This document shows, piece after piece, positions 8,444 to 28,086 of a stretch of DNA of 39,395 nt (within the stretch, counting starts at the first letter, position 1; each line of letters begins with the position of its first letter). The notes under the pieces were generated by a model. The model was given only the letters and a program-made list of their open reading frames with translations, had not been told where the DNA came from and made no database searches. Source of the DNA: Sharpea azabuensis DSM 18934 (GTDB lineage Bacteria; Bacillota_I; Bacilli_A; Erysipelotrichales; Coprobacillaceae); contig NZ_JNKU01000026.1 of NCBI RefSeq assembly GCF_000702165.1, positions 1-39,395 of the forward strand, written 5' to 3'. Position numbers and translations under genes: made by a program.

Positions 8444-8496
8444 TATGAGAAAAACATCTTCTATGAACGAATAAATATATAGGAGGTGTTTTTTCT

Positions 8497-10539
8497 ATGC
8501 ATAAATATCCCATCTATTTACAAGATGATGAGAAGAGCTGTGGTGTTTATTGCTTAAAGATGTTGTTGAAGTATTATGGAATTGATGAAGATACGACCGT
8601 CTTAAAGACAAAGACGAGGGTGGATGCAAGCGGAACGACAATCAAAGGGCTTGTCGAAACACTTAAGTCCTATAATGTTGAAACGAAGGCCTATAAAGCT
8701 TCACTAGATCAGCTTGAAGAAAATCATGTACCAATACCGGCTATTTTACATATTATTGAAGGAAAGCTAGGTCATTTTGTCGTTCTTTATGAACTTGGTG
8801 AACAATGTGTAATTGGTGATCCGGCTAAGGGACTGTTACAGGTTCCTCGCATGCAGCTAAAAGAAATGTATTCAGGCTTTGTGATTGTGATAAGGCATAT
8901 TGGTCGCTATTATGATTATCATGATGTCACTTATAAAGATTTTTTAAAACAGACTTACAAACTCTATCGTAAAGAAGTTGGCGTATTAATTCGTTATGCC
9001 CTATTTTCATCACTTCTTTCATTTGTCCTAAGCCGTATTGCTGGCATCATGATTGATGAAATGAAGGTCAAAATGCCTTTATTTCTAGGCTTTGCCCTAT
9101 TTCTTGCTTATAGTATGCTGAGTTTAATAAAAGTCTTGTTGACGAAGATGAAGAATAAGAAGACGGTGCTATTTGAACGCGCTTTGGACAAGGAAGTTGT
9201 CTATCGTTCCATTATCAATGCCTTGCATCTTCCTGAACATTTGTTGAGCAGTGATGCTGGGTTGATTCAATCCAAGCTGCTCAATCTCTACCATCTTTCA
9301 TCCTATACAGTGCGTTTCTATGAAGCATTCAGTATTGATATATTAACGATTGTCTTGCTTTTTGTGGCATTGGTGTTGCTTTCACCAATTATGGCATTGC
9401 TGGCATGTGTTAGTTTTCTTGTCATTTTCTTCTATGTTCATAGCCGCTCACGACTCCTTTTTGAACTCTACAAGACAACCTATGAGAAACATAATATTCA
9501 TATGTCGGAATTGCTTGAATTTATATCTTCAAGGCATCTCTATCGCCAGAATGCTAATGGTAAAAAGTGGGAGAAACGCTTCGAACATGCCTATGAGCAG
9601 GAAGCGAATAGTGTCGAAGATCAGGAAATGGCAAAACAAAGCTTTGTCGCTCAGCTTGAAAGCCTTCATGTCATTTTTCTAACGCTTATCCTTCTTGTGG
9701 GGTTCTACTCCTTTCATGCATCACGACTGACTCTTGGCCACCTTCTGGCGTTTTATATGCTTTATAGTTTAATGGAGACACCGATTATTGAACTTGCCAC
9801 AAGCATTGTTGAATATCGGGAGAATGTTTTACTCTTTGAGAGCTTTAAGGAGTTTGGTCTTGTCCAGAAGGATGGTCATGATGATCTCAAACAGGCTATT
9901 GCTACAATTGACTTTGATGATGTGACATATGGTTATGGCTATCATCTTGATGTATTAAAACATCTTGATTTTACGATCAATCATAATCTATTTATCATGG
10001 GGGCAAATGGTTCGGGCAAGAGTACATTGTTTTATTTACTGAAGGGACTTGATGATTGTTATAAGGGAAATATTTATCTCGATGACCAAGAGCTCAGAAC
10101 TTTACGAAAAGCTTCCCTTTATAAACATATGGCCTATTGTGCAAGAGGGGAGACACTTTTAAAGGGAAGTGTAAGAGAAAATCTTGGCAGTCATGATGAT
10201 GAGGCTATTCATGAAGTGCTTCAACTTCTTGAAAGCGAAGAGCTTTATTATCGTCTTGATCAGAATATGGATATGGATGGTCAACCTTTCTCTTCTGGCG
10301 AACAGGCGATTATTCAAATTGCCCGCTGCCTGCTTAAAGAAAGTGATGTCTGTTTATTTGATGAAGTCTTTTCTTCAATTGCCTTTTCAAAAGCGAAAAG
10401 AATCATTCATAAAATCTTTAAAGCTTATCCTGATACGCTATTTGTGATTGTAACCCATCAGCTAAATTTGATGAATAAGGGGGAAGAATATGCTATAATG
10501 GGGGATGGAAAAGTAAAGGAAATAAAGGTAAAAAGATGA
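8497..10539 (+). CDS. C39-peptidase ABC transporter (peptide exporter)
   Basis: This peptidase-containing ABC transporter of 680 residues would cleave double-glycine leader peptides and export the cargo. The N-terminal C39 domain (1-130) keeps the catalytic set: Gln9, Cys15 (DEKSCGVYCL), His93 (GHFVVLY) and Asp108 (GDPAKG). A membrane domain (about 155-440) follows, then the ATPase: Walker A GANGSGKST (502-510), Walker B LFDE (D622, E623) and H-loop His654. The signature is SSGEQ (599-603) instead of SGGQ, and the D-loop aspartate is Ala629, so the ATPase is divergent. No double-glycine leader gene is visible nearby. The stop overlaps the ybeY start by four bases, tying it to the housekeeping operon. 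GGAGGTG precedes the start. Confidence 0.85.
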   Translation: MHKYPIYLQDDEKSCGVYCLKMLLKYYGIDEDTTVLKTKTRVDASGTTIKGLVETLKSYNVETKAYKASLDQLEENHVPIPAILHIIEGKLGHFVVLYELGEQCVIGDPAKGLLQVPRMQLKEMYSGFVIVIRHIGRYYDYHDVTYKDFLKQTYKLYRKEVGVLIRYALFSSLLSFVLSRIAGIMIDEMKVKMPLFLGFALFLAYSMLSLIKVLLTKMKNKKTVLFERALDKEVVYRSIINALHLPEHLLSSDAGLIQSKLLNLYHLSSYTVRFYEAFSIDILTIVLLFVALVLLSPIMALLACVSFLVIFFYVHSRSRLLFELYKTTYEKHNIHMSELLEFISSRHLYRQNANGKKWEKRFEHAYEQEANSVEDQEMAKQSFVAQLESLHVIFLTLILLVGFYSFHASRLTLGHLLAFYMLYSLMETPIIELATSIVEYRENVLLFESFKEFGLVQKDGHDDLKQAIATIDFDDVTYGYGYHLDVLKHLDFTINHNLFIMGANGSGKSTLFYLLKGLDDCYKGNIYLDDQELRTLRKASLYKHMAYCARGETLLKGSVRENLGSHDDEAIHEVLQLLESEELYYRLDQNMDMDGQPFSSGEQAIIQIARCLLKESDVCLFDEVFSSIAFSKAKRIIHKIFKAYPDTLFVIVTHQLNLMNKGEEYAIMGDGKVKEIKVKR

Positions 10540-24931: not shown

Positions 24932-25171
24932 TTATGTGAGTAATGGTTTGAAATAAGTACACATATTATGGATGGAATCAATATTGCAGTCTGCAAGATG
25001 ACTGATATATTCCTCTAAGACACAAGTATAGTCATCGTTGACTAAGGCATAGATGTTAGAACGCAGGGCACGTAGTATCTTGATTTGGGTATGCTTATCA
25101 ACATAGATATCATGCAATTCTAAGACCTGATTGAATTCGTTTAATGAGATAGCGGTTAAATAGTTGTTCAT
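24932..25171 (-). CDS. Uncharacterised 79-residue protein
   Basis: A small soluble, mostly helical protein without recognised domain. A start at 25171 is supported by AAAGGAG about ten bases upstream, and the gene has its own hairpin terminator, so it is probably real and expressed. Four Cys residues (in NDDYTCVLEE, LADCNID and MCTYF among them) are not spaced like a zinc finger. The context is a loose region between a Fic relic and a riboswitch; I cannot suggest a function. Confidence 0.65.
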   Translation of the reverse strand: MNNYLTAISLNEFNQVLELHDIYVDKHTQIKILRALRSNIYALVNDDYTCVLEEYISHLADCNIDSIHNMCTYFKPLLT

Positions 25172-25261
25172 TTTTCATTTCTCCTTTTCTAATACTTCTA
25201 TATATTTATTCGTTTGAAAAGAAGAAATTACTCACTAAAAAATGAAAAAAATAAAATGTTA

Positions 25262-27609: not shown

Positions 27610-27718
27610 TACTTTTTTTGATTGACCAATGATCGTGAAATTGAAGTTTGAAAAAATGTAATTTCTTTTGAGTAAAAAGTGAATTTCTAGCGAATACATA
27701 TATAGGAGCACTTTTCTT

Positions 27719-27748
27719 CCGCCTCCGATTTGTGGCGGGAAAGGAGGT
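27719..27748 (+). promoter_or_regulatory. 5' leader able to hide the ribosome-binding site of the 27755 ORF
   Basis: GCCTCC (27721-27726) can pair with the ribosome-binding site GGAGGT (27743-27748). Overlapping this, CCGCC (27719-27723) can pair with GGCGG (27734-27738). The two pairings exclude each other, so the leader could switch between hidden and open states. Confidence 0.5.
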
Positions 27749-27754
27749 GCTTGG

Positions 27755-27871
27755 ATGCAGGTTATCCTATGGCTCTTGAGAAGTGCAGTCGAGGCCGTCA
27801 TCAAGCTGATGGCAGAGAAGGCACTGGAGCTTGTCATCAGGCAACTCATAAAGGCTATAAAGCATGCCTGA
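27755..27871 (+). CDS. Small amphipathic peptide, 38 residues
   Basis: The ATG follows a near-perfect AAAGGAGGT with a 6-base gap. The product (MQVILWLLRSAVEAVIKLMA, then a similar second half ending IKAIKHA) has charged residues at 9, 13, 17, 21, 25, 29, 33 and 37, exactly every fourth position (R, E, K, E, E, R, K, H), with almost only hydrophobic residues between. That is an ideal amphipathic helix with slight net positive charge and no leader. The DNA is richer in G+C than its surroundings. A leader that can hide the ribosome site lies before it and a 13-bp hairpin after it. Possible identities are a type I toxin, a leaderless bacteriocin or lytic peptide, or a membrane-binding regulator. 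I do not recognise a family. Confidence 0.6.
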   Translation: MQVILWLLRSAVEAVIKLMAEKALELVIRQLIKAIKHA

Positions 27872-27882
27872 GCTAAGCCTCG

Positions 27883-28086
27883 TTAAAAGCTAGAAGGGAC
27901 AAGAGTAGCAGCTCTTGTCCCTTCGATTTGCTTGAATGCAGATCTCGCAAGCCCAATATAAGCTAAATTGTGAAGTCTGTCAATAAAATGAGTATATCTA
28001 ATCACATTTCCTGAACTGGAATAAAAATTTTCATTAACACTATAATGATGTGCATATTTTCTAACATTCTCGCAAGCATCAAGAAA
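27883..28086 (-). pseudogene. Orphan minus-strand reading frame without start codon
   Basis: A 67-codon frame lies between a TGA and a TAA, without ATG. It reads like real protein (FLDACENVRKYAHHYSVNEN, then YTHFIDRLHNLAYIGLARSA). The last residues fall in the 13-bp hairpin at 27893. It may be the 3' remnant of a lost gene terminated by that hairpin. I do not recognise the family, and chance cannot be excluded. Confidence 0.35.
27893..27924. terminator. Strong 13-bp hairpin after the peptide gene
   Basis: Perfect stem GAAGGGACAAGAG/CTCTTGTCCCTTC (27893-27905, 27912-27924) with a 6-base loop. Few T residues follow on either strand (GATTTG on plus, TAGCTTTT on minus), so it may be a terminator or a stabilising RNA structure. 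Confidence 0.65.

Follow-up and report, generated by a model that had tools for sequence, protein, structure and literature searches.

The closest described systems are par of pAD1 and Fst-Ldr, in which convergent promoters produce a toxin mRNA and a short antisense RNA that share a bidirectional hairpin, direct repeats bring antisense pairing onto the Shine-Dalgarno (SD) sequence and start codon, and a 5' hairpin hides the SD; the toxins have 33-43 aa and orthogonal paralogs occur in one cell (PMC7472228). The Fst signature consists of a TM helix, a PXXXG motif, and a W between the helix and a charged C-terminal tail (PF13955). Chromosomal type I toxins are mostly without a known trigger or purpose. 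Competence-regulated toxin-antitoxin control is known for a type II locus of H. influenzae, where a protein antitoxin and a toxin proposed to cleave mRNA are encoded in one operon under a CRP/Sxy promoter (PMC6957337), and competence induces putative toxin-antitoxin genes in S. aureus (PMC10182052). The streptococcal SigX box (cin-box) is TACGAATA, with TgCGAATA at comGA, and SigX controls late-competence genes, with bacteriocin and fratricide genes among them (PMC6001120); S. aureus SigH drives comG and comE (PMC3486894). An incomplete literature search turned up no type I locus whose promoter belongs to a competence sigma factor, and the literature searched included no competence paper for Coprobacillaceae.

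A 39,395-nt stretch of the gut bacterium Sharpea azabuensis DSM 18934 (contig NZ_JNKU01000026.1), referred to as the window, was analyzed. Positions 27669-27983 contain one copy of a ~315-bp module. The most likely explanation for this module, to which we assign a probability of about two in three, is that it represents a new type I toxin-antitoxin family with a par/Fst-like layout, an unrelated toxin peptide and competence control. The features of the module and of two other window loci that carry the same type of promoter box are listed in Table 1.

Table 1. Features of the module and of related loci in the window
Feature	Position	Strand	Basis or remark
Competence-type (SigH/SigX-like) promoter of the peptide gene, TGAGTAA-N15-CGAATACATATA	27669..27702	+	Motif match; CGAATA at 27691-27696
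Predicted toxin mRNA	27704..27924	+	Inferred from promoter and hairpin positions; fold z = -4.4
5' hairpin pairing the ribosome site	27706..27752, loop 27724-27733 (UCCGAUUUGU)	+	Folding; covariation in helices 1-2
Shine-Dalgarno sequence AAAGGAGG	27740..27747	+	AAAGG[AG]GG kept in all intact copies
Direct repeat, leader copy GCTTGGATGCAG	27749..27760	+	Spans the start codon; predicted antisense target
38-aa peptide gene (candidate toxin)	27755..27871, stop included	+	Frame conservation
Predicted antisense (antitoxin) RNA, ~65 nt	27882..27948	-	Ends inferred; fold z = -5.3
13-bp perfect hairpin, candidate bidirectional terminator of convergent transcripts	27893..27924		Terminator-like on both strands
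Direct repeat, antisense copy GATTTGCTTGAATGCAG	27925..27941 (plus-strand reading)		Matches GATTTG at 27727-27732 and 27749-27760
Antisense promoter TTGACA-17-TATATT	27955..27983	-	Sequence, 11/12 consensus; faces the peptide gene
Second competence-type box	8446..8479	+	Upstream of the C39-peptidase ABC exporter
C39-peptidase/ABC exporter (bacteriocin/pheromone type), presumed co-regulated	8497..10539	+	Pfam Peptidase_C39 4.3e-31, ABC_tran 1.7e-22
Third competence-type box	25201..25234	-	Upstream of the 79-aa orphan gene
79-aa orphan protein, presumed co-regulated	24932..25171	-	Ortholog and box in S. porci; no family match

Direct reading of the window gave an ATG at 27755, 38 codons and a TGA at 27869-27871, in agreement with the ribosome site and frame described in an initial annotation of this DNA. 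The translated peptide is MQVILWLLRSAVEAVIKLMAEKALELVIRQLIKAIKHA. The annotation had also reported charged residues at every fourth position from 9 to 37, and all eight of these positions (9, 13, 17, 21, 25, 29, 33 and 37) hold a charged residue or His. The resulting periodicity of one charge per 4 residues, or ~92 degrees, was significant against shuffled sequences (p=0.0015), so that a polar stripe would wind round the peptide helix. By contrast, the peptide had been called amphipathic, and a classical amphipathic helix was ruled out at the canonical 100 degrees (p=0.85). The paralog peptides also showed a charge peak at 90-94 degrees, mostly without individual significance. Single-sequence AlphaFold2 prediction yielded one helix spanning residues 2-37 (pLDDT 88). 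The family peptides are short and cationic, with net charges of +3 to +7, and judged from composition alone the peptide would probably be membrane-active. No credible match to a known family, and no homolog of known function for the peptide, emerged from Pfam, NCBIfam, PADLOC, PHROGs, PDB and Rfam. The G+C content is 52% across 27705-27871 compared with 29-30% in the intergenic flanks, the compositional difference that had been pointed out earlier.

Two further units are present in the genome (C77 and C46), with 72-73% nucleotide identity to the window copy (E 1.9e-30 and 7.9e-27). The one congener compared, Sharpea porci CA-Schmier-601-WT-3 (G001), contains more: two units in tandem in C9, with the same rpsT-glgB flanks as in the window; one unit plus a shortened one in C76; the C77 ortholog plus a decayed unit in C56; and, in C28, a decayed unit plus one that is split between leader and peptide by an IS607-like element. 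This element (L024, 390-2400) consists of a serine recombinase and TnpB, and its insertion separates the toxin gene from its promoter and leaves the antisense gene intact. The encoded peptides have 38-43 aa, with M1, W6, E13 and I16 invariant. Frame-destroying substitutions in related genomes had been named among the results that would speak against a gene here; instead, the frame was kept in six diverged paralogs, with a pooled pS of 0.72 and pN of 0.34, a comparison that is qualitative because several paralog pairs are saturated. As homologous units occur twice more in this genome and again in S. porci with the frame kept, we conclude that the module is beyond chance.

These codon data bear on the possibility that the mRNA and its antisense partner are a regulatory RNA pair of competence and that the peptide is incidental. 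As such a pair would predict, conservation of the RNA parts equals that of the frame. However, differences were least frequent at codon position 2 (0.28) and most frequent at position 3 (0.54), pN was half of pS in the diverged paralogs, and W6, E13 and I16 were invariant, and we therefore regard an incidental peptide as very improbable.

The leader model detected no modules in 41 other genomes of the family, and no credible peptide relatives were found among 314 other genomes of the order, where the peptide matches were weak (E 0.002-0.01), partial and in some cases interrupted by stops, and were taken as chance. Plasmids, phages and viral contigs likewise yielded no relatives of the module. 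The leader pattern matched eight times in genome contigs; four of these matches lie outside Sharpea (in Spirochaetaceae, delta- and Alphaproteobacteria, and a Verrucomicrobiales MAG), which is about the number estimated to occur by chance.

Comparison of the insertion sites indicated turnover within Sharpea. At rpsT-glgB both species carry modules that are 74-75% identical between flanks that are 89-98% identical, which suggests that the alleles were replaced or diverged fast. At the position of C46, S. porci has an empty site; in the genome of the window (G000), the position of S. porci C76 contains an apparent remnant. Such gain, loss and decay of copies, together with the tandem arrangement at rpsT-glgB and the IS607-type element in the C28 copy, would suit a selfish addiction module that acts by post-segregational killing, its competence box merely aiding spread by transformation. 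Against this explanation, the units are chromosomal only, with no plasmid or phage relatives, and most copies keep the competence box; we consider it quite improbable. A dispersed repeat of ~325 bp (82-86% identity) was also observed at G000:C1:1522-1845, C15:45402-45726, C15:11435-11758 and C28:12285-12480, and near the S. porci C76 unit.

The leader hairpin of the toxin mRNA begins at the predicted mRNA start, which was placed ~7 nt past the -10 element; the 3' end was taken as the shared hairpin. The initial annotation had proposed a hideable ribosome site with CCTCC as its complement and CCGCC/GGCGG as a competing pairing. Folding supported a hidden ribosome site and revised its partner: most of the sequestration comes from GCACUUUUCU (27708 onward), which pairs with AAAGGAGGUGC, and CCTCC lies mostly inside or beside the loop. 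The CCGCC/GGCGG pairing closes the top of the same stem. Across the leader and terminator hairpins 97.6% of cells in the pairing comparison were paired, with 7 double-changed pairs, compared with 49-59% for slid controls; on four of the five measures only 0-1 of 500 shuffles did as well. Thus, both the predicted fold and covariation point to an intramolecular hairpin that conceals the SD, as in par.

An antisense transcript over 27883-28086 had been suggested as something to look for, and a near-consensus promoter was found on the minus strand at 27983-27955. A promoter of the form TTGAC[AT]-17-TA[TC]A[TC]T occupies the identical position, with a spacer of exactly 17 nt, in 8/8 units examined. 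The predicted antisense RNA runs through GATTTGCTTGAATGCAG and then the perfect hairpin, whose 13 bp had been correctly described. In seven copies this hairpin is 100% paired, with three double-changed pairs. The arrangement at the sequence level is that of par, with convergent promoters for a toxin mRNA and a short antisense RNA and a shared bidirectional terminator hairpin, though the U-tracts are weak overall, including the one 3' of the hairpin on the sense strand.

The direct repeats connect the two RNAs. The repeat at the start region varies by unit, being GCCTTGGTGTG in C77, GCTTTAGAT in C9 and GCACTACATG in C76, and it matches within each unit. In the window copy there is one mismatch (GCTTGGATGCAG vs GCTTGAATGCAG). 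A second repeat, the loop sequence GATTTG, is clear in the window copy only. As the repeat ties the start-codon region to the 5' end of the antisense RNA, the antisense tail is predicted to fit its own mRNA best. Consistent with this, the own leader was the best partner of the antisense tail in every row of the pairing matrix, and the true assignment was the top one of 720 permutations; the margin over the C28 antisense tail was narrow for the C46 leader (0.1 kcal/mol) and the C76 leader (0.8 kcal/mol). This copy-specific predicted pairing, which places the antisense RNA on the ribosome-binding and start region, strengthens the earlier suggestion of a type I toxin layout.

Pairing strength also helps to judge whether the family is genuine but the window copy itself is decaying and no longer functional. 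Its peptide lacks 4-5 C-terminal residues of the closest paralogs because a CGA codon became TGA, its direct repeat carries the mismatch noted above, and decayed copies exist elsewhere. However, all remaining parts are intact, the window antisense tail pairs with its own leader at -27.8 kcal/mol, the strongest own pairing of all units, and the C46-type peptides are also short, ending at 40 residues. We consider decay of this copy highly improbable.

Two antisense-type genes without a toxin gene were also observed. One (L007, 645-745), with promoter, hairpin and repeat, lies upstream of C46, and its predicted pairing is -22.4 kcal/mol with C46 and -21.2 kcal/mol with the window leader. The other (L006, 616-660), with hairpin and repeat, lies upstream of C77. 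These orphan genes are possibly extra antitoxins or remnants.

The correspondence with par does not extend to the toxin. The Sharpea peptide has no detectable sequence relation to Fst and no PXXXG motif, its W is near the N-terminus, and its charges are distributed along the whole helix. No family member shows the Fst signature, and a whole-genome scan with PF13955 gave no match to the units. Since the layout equals that of par and the toxin fails the Fst signature, we describe the module as par-like and do not class it as Fst. The module differs from par in two further respects, a competence-type toxin promoter and no consistent U-turn loop. Scanning Sharpea for a true Fst gave nothing above the cut-off.

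No sigma-70 promoter was found in the sense orientation upstream of the peptide gene. Instead, the upstream block recurs before unrelated genes, with the consensus TGAGWAA-N15-CGAATAMATATA. Searching the two Sharpea genomes for TGAGNAA-N15-CGAATAMATATA with <=2 mismatches returned 21 sites, compared with 1 for the reversed control. The box precedes a comG operon (154 aa-ComGA-ComGB-147 aa-157 aa-ComGC-ComGD), an operon whose last gene encodes DprA, a bacteriocin-like double-glycine peptide followed by RadC, and orphan genes of 79 and 173 aa; RadC and ComGC were named from sequence, without a family scan. The box of the window peptide gene is the same motif as those before comG, the double-glycine peptide/radC and the C39 exporter (0 mismatches) and dprA (1 mismatch). 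When scored with a matrix built from non-toxin-antitoxin sites, the window peptide-gene site reached 31.4 bits, and the only other window sites above 10 bits were two that belonged to the training set. The box is kept in most copies of the module and is degraded in the C77/C56 copies (24 bits). Sharpea sites scored >=22.8 bits and sites in other genomes <=19.8 bits; a family-wide role for this promoter was rejected because other genera showed no excess over the control. ComEC is present, with no box within ~1.5 kb of the match. The candidate sigma factor has SigH as its best NCBIfam match (E 1e-13, below the model cut-off) and is encoded in the order cysS-mrnC-rlmB-sigH-secE-nusG in both species.

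At the sequence level, then, a CGAATA-type box precedes comG, dprA and radC as well as the peptide gene. The CGAATA core, and one type of box before comG, dprA, radC and bacteriocin-like genes alike, are features in common with the SigX late-competence genes of streptococci and with S. aureus SigH. The Sharpea box differs in its conserved upstream TGAGWAA and in also serving a peptide gene that has a predicted antisense RNA. The H. influenzae system is similar in that a toxin-antitoxin locus lies inside the competence regulon, and differs in the antitoxin, promoter and operon structure described above.

Leaderless membrane-active peptides had been the other option raised in the initial annotation. 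Putative membership in such a regulon raises the possibility that the peptide belongs with leaderless bacteriocins or is a secreted peptide of competence resembling phenol-soluble modulins, active in fratricide, and that the antisense RNA only silences it outside competence. Like those peptides it is short, cationic, helical and without a leader, its promoter is common to the double-glycine peptide encoded with radC and to the C39 exporter, and streptococcal SigX regulons include bacteriocins (PMC6001120). However, the peptide lacks a double-glycine leader suited to the C39 exporter, the copies read have neither an exporter nor an immunity gene next to them, the peptide matches no Pfam or NCBIfam family, and copy-specific antisense RNAs together with a sequestered ribosome site are characteristic of type I toxins that act inside the cell. 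We consider this explanation less likely and favor the type I toxin-antitoxin explanation.

For the type I module we propose the following sequence of events. A competence sigma factor, presumably the SigH ortholog, would transcribe the peptide mRNA, whose 5' end would fold at once into the hairpin that conceals the ribosome site. From the other strand, a sigma-A promoter that is presumably constitutive would supply the antisense RNA of ~65 nt, which has the terminator hairpin in common with the mRNA and whose 5' tail would pair with the SD/start region and block translation. Upon competence induction the toxin mRNA may exceed the antisense RNA, allowing synthesis of a helical and probably membrane-active short peptide that could arrest or lyse all or part of the competent population. 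The competence-type promoter, which like the paralogs and the direct repeats is absent from the initial annotation, changes the likely biology of the peptide gene, as it suggests the DNA-uptake regulon as a trigger. If correct, the module would link a likely self-poison, an RNA-guarded membrane peptide, with natural transformation in Coprobacillaceae, and a non-Fst toxin under par-like RNA control would bear on whether that architecture arose repeatedly. More tentatively, and at less than even odds, each genome may encode several mutually orthogonal type I pairs of a new peptide-toxin family induced by the competence sigma factor, with which competent cells kill or arrest themselves or kin whose antisense set does not match the toxin set, coupling DNA release to uptake.

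Several minor observations concern other genes associated with the box. The peptide encoded before radC under the box (L079, 822-980, minus strand) has 52 aa, is cerein/lactobin-like (E 0.00019) and recalls competence-induced bacteriocins. Unnamed proteins of 147-159 aa are encoded within the comG and dprA operons (L177, 881-1766, minus strand; L180, 650-1578, plus strand); the first protein of the dprA operon, the one that was scanned, had no family match. Finally, one box is kept in both species (L182, 2045-2078, minus strand; S. porci C12:948-981, L118) and points antisense into the 3' part of a radical-SAM-like gene, where it possibly gives rise to a competence-induced antisense transcript.
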